From Malassezia japonica (Eukaryota > Basidiomycota > Malasseziomycetes > Malasseziales > Malasseziaceae), in the NCBI RefSeq assembly GCF_029542785.1, contig NC_083370.1, positions 1 to 64,000 on the forward strand: 64,000 bases of DNA, written 5' to 3'. Shown here one piece after another: positions 25,449 to 64,000 of the stretch. The notes beneath the pieces were generated by a model. The model was not told where the DNA came from. It did not search any database and saw nothing but the letters and a program-made list of their open reading frames with translations. The translations under genes were made by a program, and so were the position numbers. The number at the start of each line of letters is the position of its first letter. Position 1 is the first letter of the stretch.

Positions 25449-26446
25449 ATGACGTCGCTGACGCTGTCGTTGGCGACGGTATGCGTCGCGTACGTGTACC
25501 CCATGTACGCGACGTACAAGGTCTTGACTGCAGCGTCGCGGAACGGATCGACGCTGAACGCATACAAATGGCACGCGCAGAGCGGCAAAGGAAAGCGGGG
25601 ACAGGCGCAGGAGAAGCCGACGGAGCTCGCCGAGCTCGAGACGCTTGCGATGTACTGGTGTGTGATTGCAATAGTGCGTGTCGCCGAGGCATGGGGAGAA
25701 TGGTCATGGAAATGGTTCGTGTCCTTCCTAACGCAGGATCCCGTTCTATCCCCACGTCAAGTTTGCGTTTGTCCTCTGGCTTGTGCTGCCGCAGACGCGC
25801 GGCGCCTCGCTGCTTTTTACGCGCTACGTGTCGCCGTTCCTTACAGAGCACGAGAGCGACATTGACAATTTCATGGACAGGGCCCGTGAGCGGCTCGTCG
25901 CGATTTCCAGCACCACGTTTGGCGTCGTGGTGAATATCCTCCGCAGCGAAGCGGGTGAATGGACTACTGCTGCCGTACGTCACACGACTTACCCAGATAC
26001 GCGCCCATGAGCCACCGCCTCGTGCCGCGCCGCCTCCCCGTGCCGCGCCGCCGCCCCGTGCCGCGCCACCGCCGCGCGAAGAGCCCGCTCCCGAACCGGT
26101 GCATGAGCCCGTGTATGAGCCGGTGCAAGAAAAGCCGCCGCCGCCTGCGCCCAAGCCCCGCCGTGGCCCGTATCCGAATGCACTGCCTACACCGCCTGCG
26201 CCCGGCCCACCGGTACCCCCGCCGACGATGCATAACCCCGCCGAAGGCGCGCTGGAGCAGGTCACGCAGCTGCTGCAAACCAGTGCGCCGTACGTTGCTG
26301 CGACCGGCGCCTCGGCCCTGCAGTGGATTTCGTCTACAGCGCATGCCGCCGAAGAGGCCGCCAAGCAGCGGCACGAAGAGGCGGCGTCGAGTGGCTCGCG
26401 GCGGCGCAACCGCTTCTTTTCCAAGGCGGACAAGATGGAAACATAG
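25449..26446 (+). CDS. TB2/DP1/HVA22 (REEP/Yop1) family membrane-shaping protein with Pro-rich tail
   Basis: Three exons (25449-25714, 25737-25974, 25997-26446) are separated by two introns of exactly 22 nt; the product is 317 residues. The first half is the TB2/DP1/HVA22 domain: YPMYATYKVLTA, LETLAMYWCVIAIVRVAEAW, then across the splice IPFYPHVKFAFVLWLVLPQT and LFTRYVSPFLTEHESDID. Hydrophobic hairpins of this family curve ER membranes. The C-terminal part is unusual: four near-identical PPPRAA units (about residues 172-190), an acidic-proline stretch and a serine/arginine-rich end. Both splices restore canonical family residues. The gene converges on the tyrosine phosphatase gene, 8 bp apart. 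Confidence 0.87.
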
Positions 26447-26454
26447 TTCATACC

Positions 26455-27316
26455 CTACGACTGACTCGCCTGTGCGGCCAACTCGATCGCACTCGCCAGG
26501 GTCACCAGCTGACCCGGCGTCTGGACCATCCCTGCGCGAAAGTGGCGCATATGCCGTGTGATGTATGCGGCCAGATCCATGCTCGGCACGGCCGTGCGCT
26601 GGGCAGCCGGCAGCTGCTGTGCGAGAAATGCGCCGATGAGCGTGCCGGAGCGGCCGATGCCGGCGGAGCAGTGGACCCACAGCGGGGCCGCCTCGGCCCC
26701 GAGGCGAGCCTGTTCAACGGCTGTGAGCAGGCCCATAAGCTGCGGCGTGGGCAGCGCGCCGTGGTCCTGCCACCCTGTATAGTGTAGAAGCGTAAGTTCG
26801 TGGCTGGCCTCGCCGTGCGTGAGCTGCAAGCGCCGGAGTATGAGGCCGCGCGTCTCGCTCGGCTCCTCGCCCAGCATCCTCACCACCCACTCGCCCTCCT
26901 CGATCGGGGAAGAGGTACTGCTGGGCCAGTACTGATGGCTCTTGATCATGTCGCGCTCGACGAGCGGCGTGAGATTGAGCAGCACGCCCACGCGCTCTGC
27001 GCAGAGGTGGTGGTAGAACGCGCCAAACGTCGACGGCGTCGGTGCCTGCGATGCGATGCACGATGCGGCGCCCGCGCTGCTCTCTGGCAGCGGCGGGATG
27101 CGCGACGCGTTCACGTAGGGGTCCGGCAGCAGAGCGTGGTCGTCTGGGTGAGCTAGGCTACGTACACGGCAGCACATTGGTATACCGATTCGCGCTCGCA
27201 TTGCGCAGTGCACTTGCGAATGAGTGTTCCGACGTGTCGCCGCGCGTCCAGTCCACATGGTTCAGCACCGCGAGCACCTCGGCGGCGCGCTGGGGCCACG
27301 GCCGTGCCTCGGACAT
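26455..27316 (-). CDS. Protein tyrosine phosphatase, classical type
   Basis: Exons 27316-27166 and 27143-26455 are joined by a 22-nt intron; the product is 279 residues. The splice rebuilds the canonical NRYTNVLPYDHALL segment, and PDPYVNASRI follows. The catalytic signature is WVHCSAGIGRSGTLIGAFL (Cys about residue 209), and the WPD-loop position reads YTGWQDHGALPTP, where the usual Asp-Pro is shifted to W-Q-D-H. The general acid Asp is therefore present in a modified loop. The end has a QTPGQL Q-loop. An in-frame upstream Met at 27373 would add 19 residues and overlap the EXO70 start. The partner or pathway is unknown; MAP-kinase dephosphorylation is common in fungi. Confidence 0.86.
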
Positions 27317-27348
27317 CAAAGTGGAGGCGGGTCCGTTCCGGCGACGAG

Positions 27349-29296
27349 ATGGTGTATCCGGCGCGTGTTGCATCCTCGTCGGTCGCTCCGGCGATGGACA
27401 GCGACATGGCGTTGGCCGAGATGGAGCTCTTGGAGCAGAACCAAAAGCGGCTCGCGAATCTGACCGGGCGCATGACCACGATTTTGAACGGCTTCGACCG
27501 CCGCCTGGTGAAGCTCGAGAGCAGTATCCTTCCGATCCACCGCAGCACGCAACAGCTCAGTCATATCAGCTCGAACATTGAGTCGACACAACAGGAGCTC
27601 AGTCGGAGTCTGCAGCACTACGGTGTAGTGGTCGACGAGGAGCCGCTGATCCTCCGCGGCCCGAATCCCCGCGATCCGTGGCCCTATTTGGAGGCGATCC
27701 AGCGCGTGGCCCAAGGCATCGTCCAGACCAGGGCGGGCGAGCTGAAAAATCCCGAGCAGGTCGTGAGCAAGATGGAGACGCTGCGCGACCTCGGCGCAGG
27801 CAACGTCGCCGAGCTCGTTCGGGAGTATACCTCGACGGAATCGCGACCGATCGACCTGCGCGCCTATCTCGACCAGCAGCACGGATTGCCTACGCTCTCG
27901 AGCGAGTGCCTGACCTCGATCAAGGCTTTGCTGCAGTTCCTCTCGACGCTCGAGCACGGCGCTCGTCGCGCCGAGTCGCCGTTTCACCTCGCCCTGGCGT
28001 CTTATGCACAGGTGCGCAGCGCATACTGCAGCGCGTGCCTTGCGCCGCTCGTCGAGCAGATCACCGGCGTGGCGAACGTGGTACAGGACCCGTCCGTTCA
28101 CGCGCCACGCGAGGCGCTGGTCGAGTACAAGCGCGGCTCGGCGGGCTTTTACAACTGGCTGCAAGGCATGCTGGGCATGCTCCAGAATGAGCGCGCAATC
28201 GCCGCAGCCCTCTTTGAGGGCATGAGCTGGCAGAATGTCGAAACACATACCTTTACGAGCGTCGTACAGCCGCTCGTCACGTCGGTCAGCGCGCTCCTGC
28301 CGACGCTCCTGCCGCGGCTGCAGCACGGCCTCAACGCGCACCGCTTCTTTGTGCTGGACTTTTTGGGGGCGGGCAGTGCGGTGCTAGGGCCGGACGGACA
28401 GCGCTGGAGCAGCGCGCTGAAGAGCACGCAGCTTCCGTTAGACCTGCCGACGGCCATGGTCCAGACGCGCCAGGACGCGGTGCAGTTCTTCCCCGAAGTC
28501 TTGCGCGATATCAAGGTGATCCCCGTGCAGCGCGAGCATGACGTGCTCCATGTGGACGTCAGCGACATTGCGCGGCTCGGCGTGCAGCTCCTGCGCGGTA
28601 TGGCCGAGTACCAGGACGTGCTCCTCGGCCTGCTCCAGACGCTCCCCGCCAAGAACTGGAGCGATAGCGAGTCCGCGGCGCGGACCACGCAGAGCACCGG
28701 CGCGGACGGACTCTACTCGGACTATATCTTTGACGTGCTCGCGTCGATCGTCTCTTCGCTCGAGCGCTCGGTCGCGGCGGTGCCCCAGGCGACGGTCGCA
28801 GCAATCTTTTTGCTGAACAACACCTCGTACCTGCAGCAAGAGGTGAGCCAGATGCACGGCATTCTGCCGCCTGCGGCCGCCGCCTCGATCGACCAGCTGC
28901 TTAAGCAGGCGCTGCGCTCCGCCCGCACGTCCTACTTGGAGTCGTGGAACAATGTGGTCAACTCGCTCGTGGACGACGGGCCGTCGCTCTCCCGCGCCGG
29001 CACGATCGGCAAGCTGGGCGTGCTGAGCAACAACGAGCGCAACCGCGACACGACCGCGCGCTTCTTTGAGCAGATCAGCGAGAAGGAGCGCATTCACCGG
29101 ACGCAGCCGCTGCTGCGCAGCAACCGTGCGCTGCTCGAGTCGCTCCGCGACGACGTCGTTCGGTACGTATCCAGTCTAACGCAGCCTCGTATGCCCACTC
29201 TACTCGGTCTACTCGGCGAAGCAAAAAGGCGACGCCCGGACCCGCCGCCCCAGCGAGCGCGAGGTGGAGGCGATCCTCATGCAGCTCTTTCTCTAG
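27349..29296 (+). CDS. EXO70: Exocyst complex subunit Exo70
   Basis: Exon 1 (27349-29162) and exon 2 (29185-29296) are joined by a 22-nt intron; the product is 641 residues. The short second exon provides the conserved Exo70 end (PLYSVYSAKQKGDARTRRPSEREVEAIL, then MQLFL), which would be lost otherwise. The N-terminus is coiled-coil (MELLEQNQKRLANLTGRM). The body is a stack of helices including NNTSYLQQEV near residue 490. Exo70 binds PI(4,5)P2 and Rho GTPases and tethers secretory vesicles at the plasma membrane. A later Met at 27394 (MDSDMALAEM) is an alternative start. It is divergent from the phosphatase gene by only 32-77 bp. Confidence 0.92.
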
Positions 29297-29512
29297 GCCA
29301 TAGTGTGGAGCGGCGCGTAATTTTGGCTTATTCATTGTGGGGTAGATTCTGCATGAACGTGTTCTAGCACGGTGTCGCTATTGCCACCGTGCTGCGCGCA
29401 GCACGTTTATTACCCCCACCATCTCTCTCTCTCTGCTCACAAGCTGGTCTTGTGTGCATTAACCCTTGAATCGAATCCTTCTCCTCGCGCACGCTGGTAG
29501 TGCGTTCTCACC

Positions 29513-30370
29513 ATGGTTCTTTCTCTTCGTTTGCTCTCTGCTGGCCAGAGGCCCTCGGTAACTACTGCATCGGTTCTGGTGCTCTTTGCGTTTTGTGATA
29601 TACTGATCTCTAGCGTTGACGGCGCGCCTGTGGCGCATGCCACGAGCCACGGCCACCAGCGGCACGGGCACCATACCCACGGTGGGCAGGTCGTCTCCGA
29701 GAATGCGGCGGTCATGACGCGGTCGAAGCATGCGTCGAAATCCAAGTCTGCGCCGGGCGTCATGTCCCCGCAGAACAAACTGTTCCCGCTGATGATCGTG
29801 GTCATTGTTCTCGCTTGCCTGATCGGCACGGCCTCGCTTGCGCTGCTGGCACGGTGCCTTTTGCGCCGCAAGCCGGGCCAGGACGAGCCGGAGGAGGCGA
29901 TGCCTGAGAAGCGCGAGGCGACGCTGCGCCACGCACAGTCGTACGAGTCGAATGCGACCCTGTTCGACCCCGACTTCTCCGAGAAGCCCAAGGTGCCGCT
30001 CGCGCGCCCGGTCATGTCGAGCGTCTCGCGCGGGACACACGGCCGCTTCGGCTCGATGAGCTCGATGGCGCTCTTTGACCCCGACTACCGCGTCGCTCCA
30101 GGCGTGCCGGACAAGTGCGAGCACACCGCCGAGCTGCGCGAAAAGGTCATGCAGTCACGCGCATCGAACTACAGCACCGACTCGGGATCGACTGTCTACT
30201 CTATGCATGCTCAGGTTACGCCGGAAGAGGCCGCGAGCGTGCGCCAAAACGACCTTGGCGAGCCGTGCCTCACGCGGGGGGCGCAGGGATGGAACATCCA
30301 CGCCGAGCACGAGATGGACGGCATCGAGGACGTCTCGCTCGACGGACCGCCCCGCCCGGTGAGGGCCTAA
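29513..30370 (+). CDS. Single-pass membrane protein with signal peptide, unknown function
   Basis: The 285-residue product has an N-terminal hydrophobic segment (ASVLVLFAFCDILISSVDGAP), a His-rich extracellular stretch (HATSHGHQRHGHHTHGG), and one strong transmembrane helix (LFPLMIVVIVLACLIGTASLALL, about residues 91-113, written here in two parts of the same helix). A basic stop-transfer RRK and a cytosolic tail of about 165 residues follow. The tail repeats an SSMALFDPDYRVAPG / NATLFDPDFSEKPK unit. It has no recognised enzyme domain. The layout resembles fungal cell-surface sensors or septum-associated Ser-rich membrane proteins, but I cannot place it. It is intronless, with a CT-rich tract (CTCTCTCTCTCTC) upstream at about 29423-29436. 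Confidence 0.75.
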   Translation: MVLSLRLLSAGQRPSVTTASVLVLFAFCDILISSVDGAPVAHATSHGHQRHGHHTHGGQVVSENAAVMTRSKHASKSKSAPGVMSPQNKLFPLMIVVIVLACLIGTASLALLARCLLRRKPGQDEPEEAMPEKREATLRHAQSYESNATLFDPDFSEKPKVPLARPVMSSVSRGTHGRFGSMSSMALFDPDYRVAPGVPDKCEHTAELREKVMQSRASNYSTDSGSTVYSMHAQVTPEEAASVRQNDLGEPCLTRGAQGWNIHAEHEMDGIEDVSLDGPPRPVRA

Positions 30371-30478
30371 TCTGACTCATGAGCATGTACACTAGTTGGT
30401 AGTTTATTCGAGGTTCGCTAGGATAGAATAATCCACACGGTTTCACCCCTCACGCCAAGCAGGCACAAGCCCGATTAG

Positions 30479-30484
30479 CACGTG
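30479..30484. promoter_or_regulatory. CACGTGA box upstream of verprolin
   Basis: CACGTGA lies 40 bp before the verprolin start codon at 30524. It is one of a recurring set at similar distances in this window. Confidence 0.4.
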
Positions 30485-30523
30485 ATGCTACGGGCTGCGT
30501 GCTGCTTCCTGCCTTGTCTCGGT

Positions 30524-31835
30524 ATGGACTCCGCACTTCAGGATGCGATCCGTAAGGGCAAGTCCCTGAAAAGTACGTGGATTGGCTATTCAGCTAACCA
30601 CAGAGGTAGAGACTGTGGATAAGTCCGCGCCGGCCGTCGCTGGCAACGTAAATGGATCTTCGGGCGGCGGATCGGGCGGAGGTCGCCCGGCCTTGGCCAG
30701 TGCGCCGCCCCCGCCCCCAGCCGGAGGACCGGCGGGGCTGGGCGATATCTTTGCAGGGGGTATGCCGAAACTCCGCTCGACATCGGGAGGAGCGAAAACC
30801 ACTGGAGCTCCACGTACGTTGCATGGTCTGACCACAGCAGCCGCACGGCCGCCGCCCCCGCCAGGTGCACGCACAGCGCCCGGAGCACCAAGGCCTCCGG
30901 CGCCGCCAGCTCCGTCGCACGGCGCGCCGCGCCCGCCCGCGCCCAAGCCGCCAGCACCAAAGCCGGCCGGTGACAAGCCCAAGCCACCTCCGCCTGTTGC
31001 GCCGCGCGCGAAGCCCGCAGCCCTGTCGAGCACGCCCCGCCCGAAGCCGCCAGCACCGCCAGCGCCGCCGGGTGCTGCTGCGCGGCCTCCGCGTGCGCCG
31101 CCAGCGCCTCCCGCGCCGCCGGCACCTTCTGCACCCGCACCGCCGGCACCACCGGCTCCTGCGTCGCAAGCCAGCGGCGCACCTCCGCCGCCACGCTCGC
31201 GGCCGCCGCCGCCGCCTTCAATGCCTACGCGTGCAGCGCCGCCGCGCCCGCCGCAGAGTGCGCCGCCAGCTCCTCCTGCTCCCACGGCCTCGGCAGCACC
31301 TCCTGCGACACCTCCTGCAGCACCTCCTGCACCTCCTGCACCTCCTGCACCTCCTGCGGCTCCTGCGGCACCTCCTGTGGCACCCCCCGCACCTCCTGCG
31401 GCACCCCCCGCACCTCCTGCGGCGCCTCCGGCCCCCCCAGCCGCTTCGCCCGCTCCTGCCTTTACGAGCTCCTACTCGTCTGCGGCGCCTGCCCTCCCTG
31501 ATGCGCTGGTTGCCGGCCGCCGCGACCCTGTGACGGCGACGCTGCCTGTGCGTTCTACCGATCCGCCCAGCAGCACGCTGAGCGCGATGCCGCCGCCCCC
31601 CCGCGCCTCCCCCGCGCCCTCGAGCTATTCGAGTTTCCCCAATGGAGGCGCGCCGACTTCGCGCAGTACGTTCCCCCCCGCTAATGCAGTTCCCTCTCCT
31701 CCCCCGCAGTCAGGTTCGTGGACGTTCCCCTCGTCGTCAGCCTTTCCGCCCCCCCGGTCGTTCCCCCGTACGGCGCATCAATACCCCAGCGGAGCGTCTA
31801 AAGGAAGCAGCTTCGACATGCGGTCTATGCAGTAA
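30524..31835 (+). CDS. VRP1: Verprolin / WIP-like actin regulator
   Basis: Exons 30524-30572 and 30604-31835 are joined by a 31-nt intron; the product is 426 residues. The WH2 actin-binding motif spans the splice: LQDAIRKGKSLKKVETVDKS. The middle is an extreme proline/alanine-rich region with many PAPPAPPAPP and PPPPRSRPPPPP runs able to bind profilin and SH3 domains. Near the C-terminus GSWTFPSSSAFPPPRSF matches the WASP-binding element of verprolin and WIP. The protein links Las17/WASP to actin patches and endocytosis. The first exon is outside the long frame and was found from the GTACGTGG donor and the CTAACCACAG acceptor. Confidence 0.9.
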
Positions 31836-31836
31836 A

Positions 31837-31954
31837 GATCGAAACGAAATATAGACAATTTATCAACAAGGGGGCGTGCTCAGCACGTTTCAGTGCGGTC
31901 AACGCAACAACGATCGAAACAGAATATAGACAACCATAGCAGTGTGCTCAGCAC
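31837..31954. repeat. Short direct duplication in the 3' region of VRP1 and the small secreted gene
   Basis: Two related units share GATCGAAAC, then AATATAGACAA, then the imperfect palindrome GTGCTCAGCAC (units 31837-31886 and 31912-31954). The second unit ends exactly at the stop codon of the minus-strand small secreted gene. The units differ in spacing (39 versus 32 bp between the elements). Confidence 0.65.
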
Positions 31955-32268
31955 TTACGCCGGCGCAGCCTTGACGCCGTCGGTGGGCGCGGCCTGGGGC
32001 GGGGGAGCGCTGTGGGCCTGGCCGTTGATGCTGCCGAGCCAGGCGGTCGCCCAGCTGTTGGCCTGGCTCAGGACCGAGGAGTCGCCGCTCGGGGCGTACT
32101 GGGTGGCGTAGCTGTTGGCTGCCTTGAGGGCGCCGCTGGCATCGCCGGCCCAGCTGGGCTCAGCACGCTTACGGATGGCTGTTTTAGCGATTTTTACGTA
32201 CGATCAGCGTTCGCGGTGGTGGCGATAGCCGCGACGATAGCAGACACGAACAGGGTGCGGAAGTACAT
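31955..32268 (-). CDS. Small secreted Ala/Ser-rich protein (two exons), unknown function
   Basis: Exons 32268-32202 and 32178-31955 are joined by a 23-nt intron (GTACGTAAAAATCGCTAAAA then CAG); the product is 96 residues. It has no long open frame and would be missed without splicing. Exon 1 encodes an ideal signal peptide (MYFRTLFVSAIVAAIATTA, cleavage near ANA-D). After a dibasic RKR, a Kex2-like site, the mature part is AEPSWAGDASGALKAANSYA followed by a stretch containing two NSWA/NSYA units and an Ala/Pro-rich end. Codon use is as in neighbouring genes. I do not recognise the family; a secreted peptide precursor is one possibility. Confidence 0.7.
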
Positions 32269-32510
32269 GGTGTGGGAAGTGAAAAATGGGGAGAATGGGC
32301 AGAGCTGCCAGGGGCTAAGCCTCAAGGCTTGCGTGACATGTTAGCCGATGCGTGCCGCACGGGAATTGGCGTCACTCCACCGATGATTTGTCAGCAGCCT
32401 AATGAGGTCGGAAAAGAGGTTGGGAACACGACTTCTTTCACTCGTCCTTGCTGCGCGGTTCTTTGCAGAGGACTGCTGGTACTGTCCAGTCTTTCCTATT
32501 GAATTTTCTA

Positions 32511-33437: not shown

Positions 33438-33571
33438 AGCAGTGTTCTCGTAGTCACTTTTTTTTCTCATACAAAATGCGAAGCTTGCGCGATCAACAGC
33501 ATCACGCCGATCAGGTATATATGCTACAGGAATCGCAGCGCGGCCAAGCAGCAGCTTGGCGCACACGCCAC

Positions 33572-35260: not shown

Positions 35261-35480
35261 GGTCACACAGCGGTCAGACCACGTTCTCTCGAATCGCACA
35301 GGCCAACAGAGGCCAAAACTACGCGCCTAGAACGGCGGTAGTGGTGCAGAGGGTGTGATCCTCTGGGGAAAGGTCACCGGCGTAAATGGCCCCTGTGGTG
35401 CAACTTTGCGCACAGCGAGTCTAGGCCCGCCGTGTTTCACAGACACACGCGGCGCTGCCTGCGCCACAATTTCCCGTAGG

Positions 35481-35486
35481 CACGTG
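35481..35486. promoter_or_regulatory. CACGTGA box between the kinase and HEM2
   Basis: CACGTGA lies 67 bp upstream of the HEM2 start and about 220 bp upstream of the divergent kinase gene. Confidence 0.4.
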
Positions 35487-35552
35487 ACAGAAGTCAGCGG
35501 AAGGCAGGTGGAACATGCTGCGGCTCGAGTGGAGGTTCGTGCGAACCACGCG

Positions 35553-36601
35553 ATGGCGGAGAGGTAGGTGGTGGGGGGTCTGACGCAGTACGCTGTTGCA
35601 TCCCAGCATCGCGACGCCGCTGGGCCGCGCGCTCCAGGCGCAGTCGCATGCCGTGACCAAGTCGGCGCTGATGTACCCGCGTACGTCGTGTGACTCACCC
35701 AGTCTTTATCACCGATGAGCCGGACGCCCAGGTGCCGCTCGGCGGCATGCCGAACCAGTACCGCTGGGGCGTGAACCGCCTCGAGGGATTCCTGCGGCCG
35801 CTAGTCGAGCGCGGCCTCCAGTCGGTGATTCTTTTCGGCGTGCCGGTGTGCAAGGAAAAGGACGAGACGGGCACGCTCGCTGACGACCCCGAGGGGCCGG
35901 TGATCGCGGCGATCCGCGCGATCCGCGCGACGTTCCCGAGCGTGTACGTCGCCGCGGATGTGTGTTTGTGCGAATACACCTCGCACGGCCACTGCGGCAT
36001 TGTGTACGAAGACGGCACGATGGACAATGACAAGTCGGTGGCGCGCCTCGCCGACGTCGCGGTCGCCTATGCCAAGGCGGGTGCACACTGCGTCGCCCCG
36101 AGCGACATGATGGACGGGCGCGTGGGCGCGATCCGCGACGGACTCATCAAGGCGGGTCTCCGCAGCCGCACGACGCTCATGGCATACAGCGCCAAGTTCT
36201 CGTCCAAGATGTACGGCCCGTTCCGCGAGGCGGTGGCCAGCGCGCCGAGCTACGGCGACCGCCGGTGTTACCAGCTGCCGTCGAATGCGCGCGGCCTGGC
36301 GCGCCGCGCGATCACGCGCGATGTCCAGGAGGGCGCCGACATCATCATGGTCAAGCCCGCACTGCCCTACCTTGACATTCTCAGCGATGCACGCGAGCTC
36401 GCGCCGGACTACCCACGCGCGTGCTACCAGGTGAGCGGCGAGTACGGCATGATCCACGCGGCGGCGAATGCGGGCGTCGGCAACCTGCGTGGCATGGTCG
36501 AGGAGAGCATGACGTCGATGGTCCGCGCCGGCGCGTCGCTCATCCTGACCTACTTTACGCCCGAGCTGCTTACGTGGCTGGACGAGCCGCAGCCTATGTA
36601 G
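35553..36601 (+). CDS. HEM2: Delta-aminolevulinate dehydratase (porphobilinogen synthase)
   Basis: Exons 35553-35563 (11 nt), 35589-35680 and 35703-36601 are joined by introns of 25 and 22 nt; the product is 333 residues. The first two exons supply MAESTLLHPSIATPLGRALQ and TKSALMYPLFITDEP, the conserved beginning. Zinc-binding cysteines are in DVCLCEYTSHGHCG. The two active-site lysines are in LMAYSAKFSS and IIMVKPALPYLD. The enzyme condenses two 5-aminolevulinates into porphobilinogen for heme in the cytosol. Its stop codon ends at 36601 and the stop of GPN3 on the other strand starts at 36602. Confidence 0.95.
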
Positions 36602-37519
36602 CTACGGCGCCTCCTCTTCTTCGTCCATATCCTTTGGCTCGGCCGGCTCCTCGTCCTCGCCGTACTGCACAATGTTGTCGATGCACGACAGGGCCATTGC
36701 GATGCTGTCCTCGTCGGTGAGGTCGAGCGGCAGAAACGAGACCATGCTGTAGTCCTCGATCTGAATAAGCGAAAGAAAAACGTACCAGCTGCACCACCGC
36801 ATGGTTCAGCGCTGAAAACTTGGGGTTTGTCTCGGCGTTTGCCTCGTCGGCGAGCAGCAGCGGATCGGGGTCCATGTACCGCTCCATCTCTTTGCGCTGG
36901 ATATACTTGGGGCCCTGCTTGTCGTTGTTGTGGTAGACAAGGTCCATCTTGGTCATGATATTGATATGAGGGACGTCGAGATTGATCATGGTGCTCATCG
37001 CGCTCAGCACGCCTGCAAAGTACTTGGGCTTGTCGTCCATAAAGTGTGAGTCGAGCAGGTAGGCGGCGCATACCCGAAAGTTGAACTGCTGCTGCATCAG
37101 CTGCACAAACCGTGTCATGACTGGATAGTGCGTATACAGCTCAATCTGGCCGGGGCAGTCAATGATCAGGTAGTCGTTGTCATAGTTCCCCAGCTCGTTC
37201 TCGAGCCAGTCGAGATTGTTGAGCAGGTAACTGGGTTAGCACAAAAAAAAAAACCTACTCAAAGCAGTAGATCAGACCACCGTTCGGGCCGAGATCCATC
37301 TCTTCCATTACATCCTCGAGCGAAATGAGCTCGCGCAGGTCGATCGACGGCTCGTACTCGAAGCGCTCCGCGGCAGGATCGAGATTAAAGAGGTGCACAC
37401 TCCGGCCGAGACTGTGCGCATGGCTCACGAGTGTCGAGCAGAACGTCGTCTTGCCGGCGCCGGCGGGGCCTGCGTTAGCCAGAATACACACCCGTCACCA
37501 GCACTGCGTAGCGGCCCAT
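36602..37519 (-). CDS. GPN3: GPN-loop GTPase 3
   Basis: Four exons (37519-37492, 37469-37259, 37230-36786, 36760-36602) are separated by introns of 22, 28 and 25 nt; the product is 280 residues. The Walker A ([14 protein letters not shown]) is split by intron 1. [37 protein letters not shown] with switch II, and the base-recognition NIMTKMDLV follow in order. The name-giving Gly-Pro-Asn insertion is in [12 protein letters not shown]. The acidic end (DMDEEEEAP) is usual. Gpn3 works with Npa3/Gpn1 in nuclear import and assembly of RNA polymerase II. Intron 2 contains a run of 11 T in place of a normal spacer. Confidence 0.92.
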
Positions 37520-37583
37520 GCGGGGATCGAAAAAGGACGTCGGCCTCCACAGCACGTGGCGGACTACGGTAGTGTACATAGAG

Positions 37584-38348
37584 CTACTTGATGTAACGCT
37601 GGGTGAGTAGAGAGACGTACGCTCATAAACTTTTTGTGGAACTCGGTGCCTGGGTAAGTAGAGGTGACGTACGTGTAAGATCATTGACAAAGCCGCGCTT
37701 CGACAGGTCCGTCGTGCCTGCGGCCTGGTTCCGGAAAATCAGGTCCTCGTCCCAGCGCTGCTCGGACGGTGCAGCGGCATGCGCCGTGCTGTCGCCGTGC
37801 AGCGCATTCTCGAGGTTCAATAGCGGGTTGCCCCGTGCGATCTCCTCTTCGCGCGTCATTTGGTCCTGCACCGTCTCGCGCTGTTCGCGCCGCTCCTGTT
37901 CTTCCCGGCGCTCTTGCTTGATCTTTTCGAGCTCGCGCAGGAGGGCCTCGGTATCGTCTTCCTCGTCCTCGTCCTCGTCTTCCTCGTCTTCCTCGTCTTC
38001 CTCTTCGTCGTCATCATCGTCGGCGGCTTTTTCCTTGCCTTTCGGCGCGTCTTCCTCGTCATCCGCGTCGAGGTCCTCGGCACTCCCGAGGAGCTTGCGC
38101 CGCTTCCCGTCGCTCTCTTCCTCCTCGTCGTCGTCCGCGTCCGGGTTGCGCGCCGCCTTGGCCCGTTTTTCGCCGGCAGCGAGCTCTTCTTTGAGCTCCT
38201 GCAGGGACTTGCGTTGCTGGTCGCCCGGTTTCCGGAACTTGAGCTTGGTCTGCGCAGGCAGAGAGTGCTTCGAAAACGCCTGCGACAGGTGCGCAATGTC
38301 CGACTTGCCCTTCGCCGGCTCCCACGTAGGACGGTGCGCCGACGACAT
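37584..38348 (-). CDS. CWC15: Spliceosome component Cwc15
   Basis: Exons 38348-37673, 37649-37621 (29 nt) and 37598-37584 (15 nt) are separated by introns of 23 and 22 nt; the product is 239 residues. The N-terminal SSAHRPTWEPAKG is the family signature. A long acidic middle (DDDDDEEEDEEDEEDEDEDE) and a charged helix (ELEKIKQERREEQERRE) follow. The end is restored only by splicing: FVNDLTRTEFHKKFMSRYIK. Cwc15 belongs to the Prp19/CDC5L-associated complex and stabilises the active site of the spliceosome. It is divergent from the PCI-domain gene with 44 bp between start codons. Confidence 0.92.
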
Positions 38349-38361
38349 GGTGGAGAGTTGC

Positions 38362-40917: not shown

Positions 40918-42614
<1,697 letters not shown>

Positions 42615-47889: not shown

Positions 47890-51121
<3,232 letters not shown>

Positions 51122-53852: not shown

Positions 53853-53894
53853 GGTGGAAGACTCGGCCGTTGTGATGACTAAGCGTCGCTGACC

Positions 53895-55160: not shown

Positions 55161-55182
55161 TCATGTAGCTATACCCTGTATA

Positions 55183-56013
55183 TTACTTCTGCAGGCGCTT
55201 TTGCGCATCGCTGGCGAGGCGCTCGACGGCGGCCGTGTGCGCTTTGGTCAGGTCCTCGAGCTTCTTGGACTCTTTTTGCATCACCGTCTTGGAGACGACC
55301 TTGTTGTCGAGGTCGGCTTTGAGCTGCTTCTGCGCAGTCTGCCGCGCGGACCGCAGCGCGACCTTGGCCTGCTCACTGGCCTGCACACACTTTTGCACCA
55401 GCAGCTGGCGCGTCTCGCCCGTGGGTCTGGGTTAGTCCAGCGACGTACTTGGGCACGGGCACCACAATCACACACTCGCCTTCCTCGGGCGCGATGCGGG
55501 GGGACAGGTCGAGCTTGGCGGCATAGATGCCTTTTTCAATGTGCTTCAGCGACTGTGTGTGAGGGGGATAGACGTACGCCTTCCTCGTAGGCCGTAATAA
55601 TCAGCAGGTTATCGCGCACACCGACCGTCGCATAGTCGTGCAGCGGCGTGGCCTTGGTGTCTTTGCCGTACGACACGCGCACAGGGTCGAGAAGCGCTGC
55701 GTTAGGATTAGGACGTACACGCATCGACACGGCCCAGCGAGCCGACAGTCGCCTGGACACTCTCGGCGCACTTGGCCACGGTCTTGGCCATCTGGTCGCC
55801 GATCGCGTTCAGGTCGAGCTGGCCCTCGACATCGGCAGGCGGCTCGGCCCCTTTGTCGGCGCCGCCCTTTTTCTTCTTGGCAAGGGCGGCAGTGGTCGTC
55901 AGGGGACGGGCTGCGGGGAGGGGGGTCGTTGCGAGCCGCGTCAGAGCAGGCACGGCGCGCGCCATAGGGACTCGCGCACGGCCTGCGAGCCGGGGCACGA
56001 CTCGAGCGAGCAT
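55183..56013 (-). CDS. RRF1: Mitochondrial ribosome recycling factor
   Basis: Four exons (56013-55719, 55696-55578, 55552-55449, 55426-55183) are separated by introns of 22, 25 and 22 nt; the product is 253 residues. A basic, Arg/Ala-rich targeting region (MLARVVPRLAGRARVPMARA) leads to a Lys/Gly-rich spacer. The RRF fold follows: LLDPVRVSYGKDTKATPLHDYATV, SLKHIEKGIYAAKLDLSPRI, VPVPKPTGETRQLLVQKC with the classical P-x-x-T-x-E-x-R element, and the long C-terminal helices. It splits the post-termination mitoribosome with mEF-G2. It continues on the same strand as TAF9, upstream. Confidence 0.92.
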
Positions 56014-56261
56014 CGTAGCAGAAATGGGTCGGATTACGAAATGCGGGGGATTTTGCAGGTGGGCCAGGGCCAAGAGGAGGTGTGGGGACAAGGGGTGCGT
56101 CAAGCCGCTGGATCCCCCTACGATCCACGCATGATTCTCTCACGACCGCTTGCTCCCCCATCCAGCCCCACAGTCCCCAGCCTTCTCCGTGCACTACTGC
56201 ATCTTCTTCTTTTCTCTAGCATCTATGTCTGCATGGCGGCGGGTATCGTACAGCCATAGCT

Positions 56262-56892
56262 CTAGTCGTACTCTTCGTCCTCCTCCAAAGCACGCTTGGT
56301 GCCCTGCGCGCCCTGGTCCTGCGTTGCGTCCTCCATGGTTGTATCCCCCACCGAGTCCTTTCCTGGCGAGGCGTTCGTGCCCTCGTGTTGCTGCGGCTCT
56401 GGCGGGATGATCGAGTCGCCAAACGTCGTCTCTGGCGCGTCCGGCACGATCGAGAAGTTGACGTTCACGAGACAGTGCTCCGGCGGCGGCAGGCGGATAC
56501 CGTGGCGGTTCGACACTGGCGGGAGCGGCACGCTATTGAGCGACGATGCGAGCGAAAGCAGCATCTCCTTTGGCGGCGGCTGCGAGAACGAGTAGTTCAC
56601 GCGGCTCTGGATCGCGAGCTGCACGTCGTCAATCGACACGTTGCTCCCCCCCTGGCGCGATGCGGCATGGTCCGCATACACGAGCGCATCCTGCAGCACT
56701 TGGCTGGTGTACCCTGCATAAGTGACGCGACGTACGGTTGGCGAATTCCATGAGCTGGACGAGCACCGCAGGCTCCGCATCCTCGATACCCATACTCGCG
56801 AGAATCAGCGACATGAGACGTGCATCGCGTGGGATCGGCGCCGCGGACGGCCCGGCGTTGTTCGTGCGCCCTTCCGTCTTGCTCGTCGACAT
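56262..56892 (-). CDS. TAF9: TBP-associated factor 9 (TFIID/SAGA)
   Basis: Exons 56892-56736 and 56713-56262 are joined by a 22-nt intron; the product is 202 residues. The histone fold is in the N-terminal half: RDARLMSLILASMGIEDAEP, VLVQLMEFANRYTSQVLQDA (across the splice), YADHA and NVSIDDVQLAIQSRV. A conserved LPPPEHCLVNVNFSI follows, and an acidic end (ALEEDEEYD). Taf9 pairs with Taf6 in TFIID and SAGA at promoters of RNA polymerase II genes. Its start lies close to the stop of the RET2 gene (50 bp). Confidence 0.92.
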
Positions 56893-56942
56893 GGCGGCGG
56901 ACGGCAAGCGCGTATTTCCACATCCGTTATTTCCTCTACATC

Positions 56943-59830
56943 CTAGTGCACCAGGTAGTGGTCCGTGTTCAGCTGTGCGTGGAACGCGAACGGAATCGGC
57001 GCGCCGGACTCTTGCGAGGTCACGTCGTTGACCTGCAGATTAAGCAGCGTACGAGACGAGGTGAAATCGACCGAGACGGGGAAGAACACGTCGACGTCGT
57101 CGCCGCCGCTCGGCACGGTGAACTCGAGGTTCGCCGCAGGGTTCTGCGCCGAGATGCTGTCGAGGCGCCAGATGACGCGCGCGTTCTGTGCGTCGAACTC
57201 GTACGCGCCGTCCTCGGGGTCGATCACCGCAGGCTCGGCACCGGCAGGCACGGGGATCACGATCGAGACGTCTGAAAGCTCCAGCTCGCTGTTTTCCAGC
57301 TCGTACTCGACGTTCACCTCGCAGCCGCCGTCGCCGGTAGGGCTCAGCCACACCATCACGCCAAGCGGCTTCTGCGATTCGTCCTTCGTGACCGAGCGCC
57401 AGCGCAGCACGCCGACCTGCTGGTTCAGTGGGAAGGGGCGCTTGGGGTCACGCAGCGCAATACGGCGGCTCTCCCACACGTTCTTGTCGACGTGGGGGTG
57501 CGTACGGTAGGTGACCTCCTTGCCGCCAAACTGCGCGCCGGCCGTCACGCCGAGCGAGAGGCGCGCAAGCGCCGCATCGGTGATCTTGAGGTGCAGGTCA
57601 CCCTTGATCTCGAGCGAGTCGAGGCCGCCGTCACGGTTGCCGGCAAAGGTGACACGCTCCTTGGCAAGCAGCTCGACACTGGCGGGCGCAGCGGCAGCAG
57701 CGGGGGCGGGTGCAGCGGGTGCAGCGGTAGGCGCAGGTGCAATGGGCGCAACAGCAGGCTCAGCCGCCGGAGTAGCCGCGGCCATCGAGGCAGGGAGCGT
57801 CGCGCTCGTCTTGGCGGGCGTCGGCGGCGCCTCGGGCTCGGGCTCGGGGACCTCGAGCGACTTGGGCGCAGGCACCTCAACCGGGGCCGGCGCAGGCACC
57901 TCGGGCTCGGGCTGGAACGCGGCCTCGGCCTGCTGGGACTCGTAGACGTCGTCCGTGTCAAGCAGCGAAGACTGTGCAGGCGCGCCAGCCGAGAAGTAGG
58001 GGTCCTCGGCGGTCGGCTCAAACGCGGGCTCTTTCGAGGCGTACGCATCCGCAGGCTCAAAGAGCGAGTCGCTCGTAGGCGCAGGAGCCGTGTGGGCGCC
58101 CCACGCATCCTCAGGCTCACGCGCCTCGGGGTCGTACTGGTCTTGCACGCCGGTGGGCTGCGCAAAAGCGCCAAACGCGGCGGCGTCGTCCTTGGGAGCA
58201 TAGGCGTCGAATGCGGCGGACTCGTCCTTGGGAGCGTAGGCGTCAAATGCCGCAGTGTCTTCCTTGGGAGCATAGGCGTCGAACGCGGCGGACTCGTCCT
58301 TGGGAGCGTACGCGTCAAAGGCGGCACCCTCGTCCTTGGGGGCGTACGCGTCAAATGCCGCAGTGTTATCCTTTGGCGCGTATGCATCAAAGGCGGCACC
58401 CTCGTCCTTGGGCGCAAAAGCGTCAAAGGCGGCACCCTCGTCCTTGGGAGCGAACGCATCAAAGGCAGCGCCCTCGTCCTTTGGCGCGTACGCATCCAAC
58501 GCCTCGGGCTCGCCGTAGGGGTCCGCCTGGCCCTCGAGTTCGCCGTAGGGGTCCGCCTGGCCTTCGAGCTCACCGTAGGGGTCCGCCTGGCCCTCGGGCT
58601 CACCGTAAGGGTCCGCCTGACCTTCGAGCTCGCCATAGGGATCCGCCTGGCCCTCGAGTTCGCCATAGGGGTCTGCCTGCGCCTCGGGCTGTGCCTCGGC
58701 ACCGTACGCGCCCCACGTGCCACCGTCAGCAACGTTCAGGTCAGCCAGCTGCTGCTGCACGTCCTTCTGCACAAACGCCGGCGGCTGCACGACCTGCGGC
58801 GACTTTTCGACGGGCGGCGGCGCGAGTTCCGGCGTGTCCTGCTCGAGCAGCGACGGCTGGGGCACAACCGGCTCCTTTTTGCGGAGCGGCGCGGATCCGA
58901 GGCTCATGCCCTTGGCTGGCGCAGCCGGAGCCGCGCGCGGAGCAGGAGCAGGAACCGGAGCCGGAGCCGGGGCCGGGGCCGGGGCTGCGACGGGGGCCGC
59001 GACGGGGGCCGCGACGGGCGCCTGCGCCGGCGTTACCGGCTGGCTCTCTGACGGGATGCGGCGGTCGGTCTTTTGCAAGCTGCCCATGAGCGCGGCGCCC
59101 TTGGGCTTTTTCCCCAGCTGCATGCCCTTGCCCTTGAACGGCGTGGCCGGCGCGGCCGGCTGCGACTCCGGCATGCTGTGCACCGGCGCGGCGGCCGGCG
59201 TGTCGTACGTCTTGGAGACGCCCTGGTAGCCGTCCCCTCCGAACCCGCCCTGCTGGCGGCGTGTGGCGTCGCGACGCTGCATTTCGAGCTGGCGCGCACG
59301 GCGCTTGAGCTCCTCCTTCGCCTCGAGCTCCTTGTTGCGCTCGATGATCTCGTGGATGCGCTCTTCGTGCGAGTCCATCTCGAGCATCGTGCGGACCTGG
59401 GACAGCGACACGTTCTCGCGGTATCCCATGCTGACGATCTCGTCGAATGCCTCGAGGATCTCGAAGCAGGACATGAGGATGTCGTGTTCCTCGAGCGAGT
59501 GACACTGGTCGCTCACTGCCCGCGCGAGGAGGTGCAGCGTGTCAATGTCCTGTAGGATGTTGGAGTTCTTGGTCGTGATCAAGATCATATACAGATCCTC
59601 AAGCGGCTGGTACACGAACCGCACGCTGTCCGTCTCGACAAACGTGTGTTGCGACCCCGAATGGATCAGCTTCGGGAAGGAGGCGAGCAGTGCCTCGATC
59701 CGCGAGCCAGACATTTCCCGGAACTGGCGCGAGATGACGGCTGGGTTAGTTGTCGCGACCTACGTTTCCCGCCTCGCGTCGCAATTGAAGCTGCGAGAAG
59801 CACCTATCATAAGCTCCTTCCACCTACCAT
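56943..59830 (-). CDS. RET2: Coatomer subunit delta (COPI)
   Basis: Exons 59830-59828 (ATG only), 59803-59764 and 59740-56943 are joined by introns of 24 and 23 nt; the product is 946 residues. The spliced N-terminus is MVLLAASIATRGGKPVISRQ, which matches the longin domain of delta-COP; the Met that opens the long frame (MSGSRIEALL) is internal. The C-terminal mu-homology domain begins near residue 650 (SLEIKGDLHLKITDAALARL) and ends HAQLNTDHYLVH. Between them is a large lineage-specific insert of two tandem repeats: GQADPYGELE units and DAYAPKDEGAAF units. Delta-COP is part of the Golgi-to-ER coat. Confidence 0.94.
58000..58700 (-). repeat. Two in-frame tandem repeat tracts inside the coatomer delta gene
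   Basis: Tract 1 (about 58490-58690) has about six copies of a 33-bp unit encoding GQADPYGELE-type decapeptides plus one. Tract 2 (about 58170-58500) has about nine copies of a 36-bp unit encoding AFDAYAPKDEGA-type dodecapeptides. Units differ mainly at synonymous positions, so selection on the protein or old duplication is likely. Both are acidic and probably disordered. Confidence 0.85.
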
Positions 59831-59893
59831 CCTAACGCGTGGCCAAACGCACTGGGCAGGCCGCCGGCGTCGCCCGCCAGCTCGACTTAGTAT

Positions 59894-59899
59894 CACGTG
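59894..59899. promoter_or_regulatory. CACGTGA box upstream of RET2
   Basis: CACGTGA lies 64 bp upstream of the RET2 ATG at 59830 and 15 bp from the stop of PRE1. Confidence 0.4.
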
Positions 59900-59913
59900 A
59901 CTGTCCGTGCCCG

Positions 59914-60523
59914 CTACGCGAGGTCTATGGAGCGGACGCCGTGCTCGTCGACGACGCGCACGGTAAACGTGCCTACGTCGATCACGAGACGTTTCCGGAG
60001 CTCGTCAATGCACCGCTTGAGCAGGTCCAGGCCCTCTTCGAGCGACATATCCGGGCGGTGGTAGCGGTCCATGGTCGACAGCGTGAGGTACGCCGCATAG
60101 CCCTGTGCGGCAAACGGCACCTCGACCTGCGTGCCGAGGTAGTCGACCCAGTAGAGCGCCGGCGTCTTGGATGGCGCGTCGTAGCCGCCGAGGAGCAGGT
60201 TCACCTGGTAGGGCTTGCGCGAGCGGATCGACTCGGCGAGCTGTGTGCGGATCCACGCTGCGGCCGCCTTTGGGCGCAGGTCGATGTTGTTTCTGGGTCA
60301 GTGCGGCAACGTACCGGATCGAATAGAGGCGCATGTTGCGCTCAATGTACTCGGCAAACTGGATCGTGTCGCCCGACTCGCCCGAGTAGGTCATGACCAG
60401 GTTTTTGCTGAGGACCTTTTGCTTGTCCTCGTCGCTTTTCATCTTCACGATCGACCGCGCGGCATTGTTGTCCGACGCGATGATTGTATAGCCTTGGCCA
60501 GTGATGCCCAAGAGGCACTCCAT
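59914..60523 (-). CDS. PRE1: 20S proteasome subunit beta-4
   Basis: Exons 60523-60315 and 60292-59914 are joined by a 22-nt intron; the product is 195 residues. It begins directly with MECLLGITGQGYTIIASDNN, i.e. no propeptide and no catalytic Thr1, as usual for the inactive beta-4 ring subunit. Further conserved parts are FAEYIERNMRLYSIR, the splice to NNIDLRPKAAAAWIRTQL, VNLLLGGYD and LYWVDYLGT. It belongs to the core particle. It is divergent from MTW1 with 72 bp between start codons. Confidence 0.95.
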
Positions 60524-60556
60524 CGTGGTGTGGAGCGACGCTGACGACGCTTTTGC

Positions 60557-60562
60557 CACGTG
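60557..60562. promoter_or_regulatory. CACGTGA box at the centre of the PRE1 / MTW1 divergent promoter
   Basis: The box is 33 bp from each of the two start codons (60523 minus, 60596 plus), almost exactly central in the 72-bp gap. A single element could set both directions. Confidence 0.5.
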
Positions 60563-60595
60563 ATCGATCGCGTCGCGGAGAAACACGCCTCCACC

Positions 60596-61376
60596 ATGGC
60601 CGAGAGCACTGCGCGCGACGCCGAGGCGGCGCACCGCCATGTGATGCTCACCGAGCTGTTTGGGATGCATCCCCGGGCGATCGTCGATGCACTCGTCGTG
60701 CACGCAAACGAGCACCTGTACCTCCTCGGCGCGAAACTCGAGGAGCAGGTGCGCGCCCTCCTCCCGGCCGACCAGGCCGAGCGCGACGCGGAGCAGGGCG
60801 TGCACGCGATCACGACGCTGCTGGAGAATGTGATCGACTATATTATGGATGCATTCGAGCTGTTTTGCATGGACTCGGTGTTTGTTATAACCCCGGCACA
60901 GTCGCGGCGCATGACCCTCAGCCACCACCGGGGGCTCGACCTGCGGGGCGAGACACAGGAACGGATTCCCGACGCGGAGCACGCTCTGCGGCGCAGGATC
61001 GCGAGCGTACGTCGCACAACTCACCCAGGCCCGCGCGACACAGCACCGCCTCGCACAGGCCGAGCAAGCGGCGCACGTCCGCCTGCAGCGCGCCGAGGCC
61101 GTGCGCTCTGCCTATGCGTTTTTCGGCGTGGAGGCCAAACGGGCGCTCGGGGACGCGTCGCCGGTCGACGCGGCACACAAGGTGACGCTCGCCGTGCCCA
61201 AGGTCCTCGCGGCACTCGAGCGCCTGCGCGCAGAGCGCCCACTAGCCCACGCCCTCCTCCCTGCGCCCGACGCAGAGCACCCGGTGGACCAACGCGCGTG
61301 GGAAAAAGGGCGCGACGAGTACCTCAACTGGGAGGCACACCGGATTATTGCGAGCATGCGTGCCCATTCCAGCTAG
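60596..61376 (+). CDS. MTW1: Kinetochore MIS12 complex subunit Mtw1/Mis12
   Basis: Exons 60596-61006 and 61029-61376 are joined by a 22-nt intron; the product is 252 residues. The N-terminal helix HVMLTELFGMHPRAIVDALV and the block EQGVHAITTLLENVIDYIMDAFELF match the Mis12 head domain. The rest is coiled coil (ATQHRLAQAEQAAHVRLQRA), ending with WEKGRDEYLNWEAHRII, the family C-terminal motif. It joins centromeric CENP-C/Mif2 to the Ndc80 complex. The ATG context at 60596 (CCACCATGG) is ideal; the upstream frame begins with GTG. Confidence 0.88.
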
Positions 61377-61404
61377 ATACCCTTGCAGCGATGTAAAAAA
61401 CAGT

Positions 61405-62839
61405 CTACATAGCCTGCTCTGCCGGCTGCTGCCCCTGCGCAAGGGCCTGCTGCCGGTAGTACTCCTCCCACTCCTTGGAGTAGTCGCGCACGGGCTGTCC
61501 CTCGGCGGCCTGCGCCTCGCCGCTCTGCTGCGCGGCCTGCGCCGCGTAGTACGCGGCCCACTCGGCAGAGTAGTCGCGCGGCGCTTCGTCCGGTGCCTCG
61601 CGCGCGCCCCAGCCCGCGTCGGACTGCGCATCGTACGTCGGCTGCTCCGGGCGCGCGTTCGGCGCGTTCCACACGCTCGGGTCGCGCCACGGGGGAATCT
61701 TTTCGCCCTTTTCGTTGAGCAGCGGCTCGGGCATGGCGGCCATCGGCGCGCGGGGCGCAAACGGATCCTCGCCGATCTCGGCCATGAGATTCGCGTACTC
61801 CGAGTCGACCTGGTTGCCGTACGCCCCCCAGCCCTCGCCTCCTTGCGCCATGCAGTCGCGCGCGACGTGGCCGGGCTGGCCGCAGCGGTGGCACGTAATG
61901 CCGCCGCCCCAGTTGCGCTCCTGCAGGCACTCAAACTTGCGGTGCCCCTTTTCGCCGCAGTTCTGGCACACTTGGTTCTCGTCGTCGCGCAGCGTACCGT
62001 TGAGCACCGCGAGCTCACGCAGCTGGCTCCGCTTGTGGTCGTTTTGGGTCTCGGGCGTGGAGGCGGCCGTGGACACGACCTCGTTGATGAGCTTAATGCA
62101 GAGCTTCACTTGGCGCTCGGTATCGGCGGTAACAATGCAGTGCATGTCCTCCTCGTCCTCCGCACTCGCGCCTTTGCCGTGCTTCACACTGCCGCGGCCG
62201 CGGATATGGATCTTGGCCCCGCTCTGGTTCTCCATCTTTTTCAGCGTATTGCCGCGGGGGCCGACCAGCAGACCAAAGAAGTTGATCTCGGGGAACTCGC
62301 GCACAGGCAAATACACCTTCTCGGTCGGGCGCATCGTCCGCTTCGCCGCCTGGTACTCGGCGGGGGGGCGGAACATGGGGTCGATCTTCATCTGCCGCTC
62401 CACAAGGCGGATGCGCTCCTCGTCGAGCTTCTTGCGATACCGCATCTCGCGCGTGTTGTTTCGGCGGCCGTACTGGTCATAGGTTGGGGGGGGACGGCGA
62501 GCGCTCCTTCTCGGGAGGGATCACATCGCCGGTCCGCATCTTGCGGTTGATCTCTTCAAGGCGCACCTGGATCGCATACCGATCGAGGTCCTGACCACTC
62601 ACAGGTCCTTGAATCGCGGCAGGCGCAACATCTGAGCGCTCGGCGCCCCAGCGCGAGCGCCGCTTGCGCGCACCGTGCGGATCGTCGCCGCCGTGCGGCT
62701 GGGGCGGCTCGTCCGCCCGGCGCTTCGGCGCATCGTACGGACCGGGGGCTTGATCGCCGCCACCGCCGCCCCAGCGTCGCGAATGGCCGAGCGGCTGCGC
62801 GTTCATGCCCGTGATCTGGGCATTGTTTCTCCTGGACAT
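61405..62839 (-). CDS. MSL5: Branchpoint-binding protein (SF1/BBP), with apparent frameshift at a C8 run
   Basis: The frame from 62839 (MSRRNNAQITGMNAQPLG) runs 120 codons to a stop at 62477. A second frame, offset by one, starts inside the same homologous region and continues to 61405. They meet at a C8 run (+ strand G8, 62486-62493). Total length 1435 nt is one base over a multiple of three, so a single extra C explains it. No GT-AG intron gives the right frame. After the run come TYDQYGRR and NNTREMRYRKKLDEER, the KH-QUA2 domain (KVYLPVREFPEINFFGLLVG, GPRGNTLKKMENQSG), two zinc knuckles (CQNCGEKGHRKFEC, CHRCGQPGHVARDC) and a C-terminal region with YSAEWAAYYAA and YSKEWEEYYRQQ repeats. BBP recognises the branch sequence in the commitment complex. 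Confidence 0.88.
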
Positions 62840-62885
62840 CGCGCGACGGTTCAGTGGCGAGCGGCGCCCGCGCAGATTTGCGCAC

Positions 62886-62901
62886 CACGTGGGACCACGT
62901 G
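62886..62901. promoter_or_regulatory. Two CACGTGG boxes in the BBP / coiled-coil divergent promoter
   Basis: CACGTG occurs at 62886-62891 and 62896-62901, ten bases apart, within the 85-bp gap between start codons 62839 and 62925. A nearby GGGACC is shared by both units. Confidence 0.45.
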
Positions 62902-62924
62902 GCATTGGCCTGAGCGGGTTGCTC

Positions 62925-64000
62925 ATGGCGAAAGGCTCACGGCGAGGACGCAGCGGCGCACGGCCCAAAGGCGACGACGCGCAGAAGGGCGCCGGACGGG
63001 GGGAGGCGCAGAAAGGAGGAGTGGACGCAGGTGGCAAGGATGCGCCGGCGGCTACCGATGCTAGGGACGATGCACGCGCCGACAAGGGCCAGGGCAACGA
63101 GGCCCTGGATGCGCCGGCACCCAAAGACACCAGCGGGGGCGCCAAAGGACAGCGCGAGGACGCCAAGGACGAGCAGAATGATGCTCAGGACGATTCGGGG
63201 CCCAAAGGATCCGCAGGCAACGAGGCCACTGGCACAGACGTGCCTGCCGCTGCCGAGCCGCCGATCGAATCCACGCCGAACGAACCCCTGCCGAACGAAC
63301 TTACACCGGAAGCTACTACCAGCGAGCCTTCCCCGCCCGACACCGGCCGCGACGTTGCTGCGCTGCACGACACCATCGCCCGCCTCCAGTCGGAGCTCGA
63401 CGATACGCAGCGCGCCATTGCCGAGAGCCACAGCGCATTTGCCGAGCAGCTTGTCGCGATGCATACGCAGCACGCCCAGGACCTAGACGAGGCCGTGGCC
63501 AAGGCCGACGCGGCGCACGGCCAGCATGCCGATGCCCAGGACGCGACCGACCGCCTGGAGCAGCTCGAAAAAGAGCACGCATCGCTCGCCAAAGCGCACG
63601 ACGAGCACAAGTCTGCGCTGGATGCCGCGCACGAGGCGCAGCGTGTCTCTGAGCAGCGCACGCACGACGAGCGTGTGCGTCTCGAACGCGAGATCGAGGG
63701 TGTGCGCGCCGAGCGCGACGCGGCGCGTGCCGACCTTGCGGCTGCCTCGGCGACCGTCACGTCGCTCGAGGCACAGCTTGCCGAGCGCACCGCGTCTGCG
63801 CAAGACGTCGAGGCGCTCGAGCAGCGCATTGCCGTACGTCGCTTTTCTCACGCAGACCCTCACTACGCACGCGCCCACGCTGGCTCCTCCGGAGCCCCTT
63901 GCGGACATTGCACGCTCGCTGGGCTACTCTGCACCCGACTATGTACGTTGTGTTACTGACGCAGACCCTTGCCGAATCTGTACGTCACGACGCTGACCCA
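62925..64000 (+). CDS. Coiled-coil protein, partial (continues beyond the window); golgin-like candidate
   Basis: Exons 62925-63833, 63856-63942 and 63965-63979 are visible, joined by two 22-nt introns; a third intron starts at 63980 (GTACGT...) and the window ends on its CCA, one base short of a 22-nt intron. The visible 337 residues start MAKGSRRGRSGARPKGDDAQ and pass through about 120 disordered Asp/Ala/Lys-rich residues. A long heptad-rich coiled coil follows (DTIARLQSELDDTQRAIAES, LEQLEKEHASLAKAHDEHKS, EREIEGVRAERDAARADLAA) and then PLADIARSLGYSAPDY. The basic start and coiled coil recall the golgin Rud3, but no GRAB or GRIP domain is visible yet, so I leave it unnamed. Confidence 0.7.

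Follow-up and report, generated by a model that had tools for sequence, protein, structure and literature searches.

Introns of exactly 22 nt dominate the intron length distribution of the genome studied here, and the distribution has a sharp lower edge at that length, so that they form an ultra-short class. As judged from the sequence, they are very probably usual GU-AG introns, spliced by the major (U2-type) spliceosome and worn down to the shortest form it accepts. The window, the stretch of 64,000 nt in which the class was noticed, lies at the beginning of a 2.11-Mb contig; the genome comprises 8.43 Mb in nine contigs, and a sample of 264 kb consisted of the window and the next 200 kb. Neither the Rfam search nor the tRNA search of the window gave a match. 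The ribosome recycling factor encoded in the window has nine named relatives with >35% identity, all of them from Malassezia, and the best full-length relative is that of M. brasiliensis (73% identity over 99%). These closest protein relatives indicate that the host belongs to the genus Malassezia.

The 22-nt introns of the window

The initial annotation proposed 17 complete 22-nt introns in the window and one more truncated by its end. All 17 run from GT to AG on one strand, and 16 contain CTNAC followed directly by (G/C)CAG, as had been claimed; the exception, at 56714, reads CTTATGCAG. The truncated intron is complete in the contig. The introns are as follows.

25715..25736 (+), 22-nt intron, HVA22-like gene; junction within the TB2_DP1_HVA22 domain; gene finder: 79-nt intron with the same 3′ end
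25975..25996 (+), 22-nt intron, HVA22-like gene, proline-rich part; frame only; gene finder: 286-nt intron
27144..27165 (-), 22-nt intron, protein tyrosine phosphatase gene; within domain
29163..29184 (+), 22-nt intron, Exo70-like gene; close to the end of the Exo70_C domain
35681..35702 (+), 22-nt intron, aminolevulinate dehydratase gene; homologue alignment
37470..37491 (-), 22-nt intron, GPN-type GTPase gene; P-loop start, edge of the domain match
37599..37620 (-), 22-nt intron, Cwc15 (spliceosomal protein) gene; homologue alignment
41295..41316 (+), 22-nt intron, Cbk1/NDR kinase gene; homologue alignment
41830..41851 (+), 22-nt intron, Cbk1/NDR kinase gene, HRD region; homologue alignment
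49352..49373 (-), 22-nt intron, hexokinase gene, residue 8; outside domains
55427..55448 (-), 22-nt intron, ribosome recycling factor gene; within domain
55697..55718 (-), 22-nt intron, ribosome recycling factor gene; within domain, position common to relatives
56714..56735 (-), 22-nt intron, TAF9 gene, without CTNAC; Pfam domain spans the junction
60293..60314 (-), 22-nt intron, proteasome subunit beta type-4 gene; homologue alignment
61007..61028 (+), 22-nt intron, Mis12 gene; within domain
63834..63855 (+), 22-nt intron, gene without a tested domain; frame kept
63943..63964 (+), 22-nt intron, then a 15-nt exon; in-frame alternative: single 59-nt intron 63943-64001
63980..64000 (+), 22-nt intron truncated by the window end (63980-64001 in the contig)

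A scan of both strands of the window with a loose pattern (GTNNG N8 YTNAYNYAG) gave 18 matches, namely the 17 introns and one at 4299, which lies within no intron of the window gene models. These models contain no intron below 22 nt, and sizes of 23–25 nt come next, in agreement with the initial annotation. Its statement that all 17 restore known protein motifs held for 13, which lie in a Pfam domain or an aligned homologue; for the other four (25975, 49352, 63834 and 63943), removal keeps the reading frame and nothing more. Our own gene finder recovered 14 of the 17 as such, choosing longer introns at 25715 and 25975 and one 59-nt intron at 63943, and at these three positions the 22-nt versions are likewise open in frame. 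Positions 63965-63979 may thus be a 15-nt exon between two 22-nt introns, with the 59-nt intron as the in-frame alternative. The gene for Cwc15 (37584-38348, minus strand) has a 23-nt and a 22-nt intron of its own, about ten codons apart.

When the spliced proteins were aligned with homologues, no gap was seen at the 22-nt junctions of proteasome beta-4, Cwc15, Cbk1 and aminolevulinate dehydratase. Pfam domains span junctions in the tyrosine phosphatase, the Exo70-like protein, the GPN-type GTPase (at the domain edge), the recycling factor (two introns), TAF9, Mis12 and the HVA22-like protein. Removal of these segments thus appears to restore the coding frame and a homologous protein, as is expected of major (U2-type) spliceosomal introns, and the GU..AG ends and the branch motif near the 3′ end are likewise those of this type.

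Of the three introns in the recycling factor gene, two occupy positions that relatives share. At the first (22 nt here), the predicted proteins P0006, P0015 and P0017 of relatives start within an intron or are read through it; at the second (25 nt here), P0016 (M. furfur) and P0017 run into one. At the first position P0017 has seven extra residues, which would fit a retained 21-nt intron with an offset of 15 from the first G (G1) to the branch A; by the protein letters of P0017, the floor of this offset may differ between species. Five predicted proteins of relatives (P0008, P0010, P0011, P0013 and P0015) end near residue 208, a point at which the present genome lacks an intron; this pattern suggests an additional intron in other Malassezia species.

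Coding frame across the candidate introns

Removal of 22 nt predicts a frame shift of one base. Between the best codon-usage frames upstream and downstream, a one-base shift was found in 57 of 74 candidates in the 264 kb, the other shift in 13 and none in 4, and the spliced form scored above the retained form in 68 of the 74. Of 72 cases read on through a retained 22-nt intron, 56 reached a stop within 150 nt, 18 of them in the intron itself, so that unspliced copies would be selected against. A looser motif gave 25 candidates at 15–21 nt versus 99 at 22 nt; spliced beat retained in 13 of these 25, including 4 of 5 at 16 nt, and a few introns below 22 nt may therefore exist, though there is no excess in their number.

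A gene finder given only GT and AG, with no length term, predicted 23 introns of 22 nt, whereas four control dinucleotide pairs gave 4, 2, 2 and 5. The codon model of this finder is weak, and it predicted 160 introns overall, barely more than the controls (143–150). With splice-signal matrices, again with no length term, the gene model of the 264 kb contained 153 introns, among which 75 measured 22 nt, 25 measured 23 nt and a single one 18 nt; since the matrices were built from 22-nt candidates, introns with other signals are underrepresented, and the histogram describes introns with these signals. Reversed motifs in the same model yielded 19 introns in all, one of them of 22 nt. At a stricter penalty, none of 134 introns was shorter than 22 nt, and the 18-nt intron was gone; we did not retain it. 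In the 264-kb gene model, 24 nt was low (3 versus 9 at 25 nt).

Genome-wide counts

The strict 22-nt pattern (GTACGT-N7-CTNAC-SCAG) occurs 1,437 times in the whole genome (743 + 694), and the same pattern reversed, used as a control, does not occur (0 matches). The same ends occur 3 times at 15–21 nt (17, 19 and 20 nt; control 1) and 361 times at 23–53 nt (control 12). One hundred of these 361 were listed, and 5 that spanned two introns were dropped; among the 95 matches kept, 41, 15, 14, 7, 5 and 5 were of 23 to 28 nt, respectively, and 8 were longer. Avoidance of lengths divisible by three was considered and not adopted, because 24 nt is not low among these strict genome matches listed (15 versus 14 at 25 nt). 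With the pattern GTNNGT + CTNACNCAG, the 264 kb contained 74 matches at 22 nt (control 1), 11 at 23 nt and 2 at 24 nt, with 4 in all at 15–21 nt. Extrapolation from 72–75 introns of 22 nt per 264 kb puts the genome total at approximately 2,300. The sharp edge at 22 nt that the initial annotation anticipated for an intron length histogram is thus seen in both the genome pattern counts and the gene models of the 264 kb, and it is very sharp.

Two limits within the intron

When candidates in the 264 kb were tabulated by the offset from G1 to the branch A and by the distance from the branch A to the last G, the peak lay at (16,5), with 58 counts, versus 9 at (17,5) and 5 at (16,6). Offsets below 16 had 7 counts versus 5 in the control, and distances below 5 had none versus 1. 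The branch A lies five bases before the last G in 106 of the 153 introns of the gene model. Genome-wide, CTNAC followed directly by YAG, which gives a distance of 4, was found in 48 matches of 18–24 nt (control 1), of which 39 were of 21 nt, 4 of 22, 4 of 23, 1 of 24 and none of 18–20 nt. The strict 21-nt candidates amount to approximately 3% of the strict 22-nt class; their branch A is four bases before the final G, and they are shortened on the 3′ side with the offset unchanged. Because these 39 candidates exist, the length of 22 nt is not absolute. The offset is at least 16 and the distance at least 5 (rarely 4), and in both the commonest value is at the floor. In these counts, the hard floor lies in the offset from G1 to the branch A, at 16; the distance from there to the last G has a floor of 5, rarely 4.

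One of the 39 strict 21-nt candidates was inspected in its gene. It lies in a METTL16-like gene (L023 1428-1448, minus strand, equal to G000:C8:266885-266905), is divisible by three, and adjoins a 22-nt intron (L023 1519-1540). If retained, it would add seven residues; a gap of six is present there in the best structure hit and in 12 of 14 aligned relatives.

Splice-site signals and spliceosome components

The inner bases of the 22-mers vary freely, with weak preferences at +8, +9 and +13. At the 5′ splice site, mostly GTACGT, position +4 is C in 72% and A in 3% of 72 introns from the 264 kb. In Saccharomycotina, METTL16 is described as accompanying a preference for A at +4 (PMC10581693); here, in contrast, a METTL16-like gene (G000:C8:266816-267695) and a canonical U6 occur without such a preference. 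We therefore discarded the idea that A at +4 is rare because METTL16 was lost, a METTL16-like gene being present. The genome contains U6 (80.8 bits) with the canonical ACAGAG box and U2 (123.1 bits) with canonical GUAGUA. A compensating change in either RNA was likewise rejected, both being canonical in their pairing regions, and so was loss of Prp18 as an account of the short branch-to-3′ distances, given that positions 51-142 of the 143 of the Prp18 domain were matched. A whole-genome search for U1 snRNA with the Rfam U1 model and two patterns, run without a positive control, gave no match, and a search of the genome for the RED_N domain, also without a positive control, gave no match and no candidates.

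Comparison with known short introns

Tiny introns are a kind already known from ciliates, a nucleomorph and Trichomonas, and short introns are known in Malassezia. Stentor coeruleus introns are 15–16 nt long with the branch A at position 10–11 (PMC9505925), so that 22 nt is no general spliceosome minimum. The proposal that 22 nt is the physical minimum for this spliceosome must accordingly be narrowed: the very sharp edge speaks for it, whereas the 39 strict 21-nt candidates speak against an exact length, and Stentor against generality. As in Stentor, the introns described here are nearly uniform, tiny GU-AG introns with the branch A five bases before the last G (10 of 15, 11 of 16), and they coexist with a canonical U6 (ACAGAGA in Stentor) and a canonical branch-recognition sequence in U2. 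Unlike here, where the offset is 16 and CTNAC is strong, the introns of Stentor, a ciliate and not a fungus, have an offset of 9–10, are AU-rich and show no strong branch consensus. For human introns, the in vitro minimum from 5′ splice site to branch is reported to be approximately 50 nt (PMC6692369), and the offset of 16 falls between this value and that of Stentor. These comparisons suggest that the 3′ distance may be a common limit and that the 5′ span may differ between lineages.

Other eukaryote groups have introns in a similar size range, including Nyctotherus (21–29 nt, with no branch motif found; PMC2633312), Paramecium bursaria (median 24, minimum 15; PMC12862383), a nucleomorph (mostly 18–20 nt; cited in PMC5014332) and Trichomonas, whose type B introns, only 24 in number, are 23–25 nt long (PMC12316389) and, as here, have the branch site close to the 3′ end. 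Giardia introns have a fused branch/3′ splice site, VCTRACACRCAG (PMC6679479), and the fusion at a fixed distance is shared with the present introns; Giardia differs in having very few introns and, by our own count in this sequence, 7 rather than 5 bases from the branch A to the last G. Among fungi, introns of 20–40 nt are reported in Cryptococcus (PMC11913375) and very short introns in Malassezia (PMC7426719), the median being 30 nt for M. restricta and 40 nt for M. arunalokei (PMC9241646). Gene prediction in M. restricta was run with limits of 20 and 15 nt (PMC6473144), and mean intron lengths of 76 and 79 nt come from two annotations, apparently of M. globosa (PMC4634964). Our search of the open-licence literature found no mention, for Malassezia, of a class of 22-nt introns, an edge at that length or a branch point at a fixed position. 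Two genome papers on M. sympodialis (Zhu 2017; Gioti 2013) may already describe part of the 22-nt picture.

Floor, optimum or insertion

On the reading that we favor, an intron would consist of two recognition blocks that nearly meet: the 5′ splice site, mostly GTACGT, and a branch site fused to the 3′ splice site (CTNAC-SCAG), with seven bases under loose constraint between them. An offset of 16 would be the least at which U6 can hold the 5′ splice site with U2 on the branch site. Deletions would push introns down to this floor, and selection would remove shorter forms, because these fail to be spliced and, when retained, shift the frame.

The shape of the distribution also admits the less likely reading that 22 nt is an optimum and not just a floor, an offset of exactly 16 fitting best, like a ruler, with longer introns actively disfavored. 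At distance 5, counts fall steeply from 58 to 9 between offsets 16 and 17 in the 264 kb, and in the genome 1,437 matches at offset 16 stand against an estimated 150 at 17 (from 41 of the 100 listed among 361), while the later length steps are shallow (15, 14 and 7 among the 95 matches kept of those listed). A strong deletion bias against a floor could, however, yield the same shape, and longer introns are common, given that, in the model, 78 of the 153 exceed 22 nt or are the single 18-nt one. If there is an optimum, it may reflect a rearranged geometry of the early spliceosome, a tentative proposal in which the offset of 16 would be both floor and optimum, at about a third of the human value of approximately 50 nt in vitro, and perhaps without RED, which short human introns need.

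The uniform length, shared ends and many copies would also be expected of a recently spread, introner-like insertion family of fixed length. We consider this very improbable, because the inner bases vary freely apart from the weak preferences noted above, introns of 23–28 nt have the same ends, and two of the recycling factor intron positions are common to other Malassezia. That the 22-nt segments stay in the RNA, as chance or translated sequence, is hardly credible in view of the 1,437 matches against none in the reversed control, the frame tests and the homology across junctions.

Implications

For worn-down introns of the major spliceosome, as favored here, the practical consequence is that genes of such yeasts will be broken by any gene finder whose minimum intron length is set higher. 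Some public protein predictions for relatives (P0006, P0015, P0016, P0017, P0023 and P0027) read into an intron at these same positions. Structurally, the question of how near a 5′ splice site and a branch point may lie to each other is still open. The initial annotation is confirmed as a precise observation, and its interpretation is partly supported: the limit would be an offset of 16 plus 4–5, not a length of 22, and would belong to the present spliceosome, not to spliceosomes generally. Many introns stacked at one offset provide a natural ruler that yields two readings of the limit (16 and 5), both statistically sharp, and that could be set against relatives having other limits.
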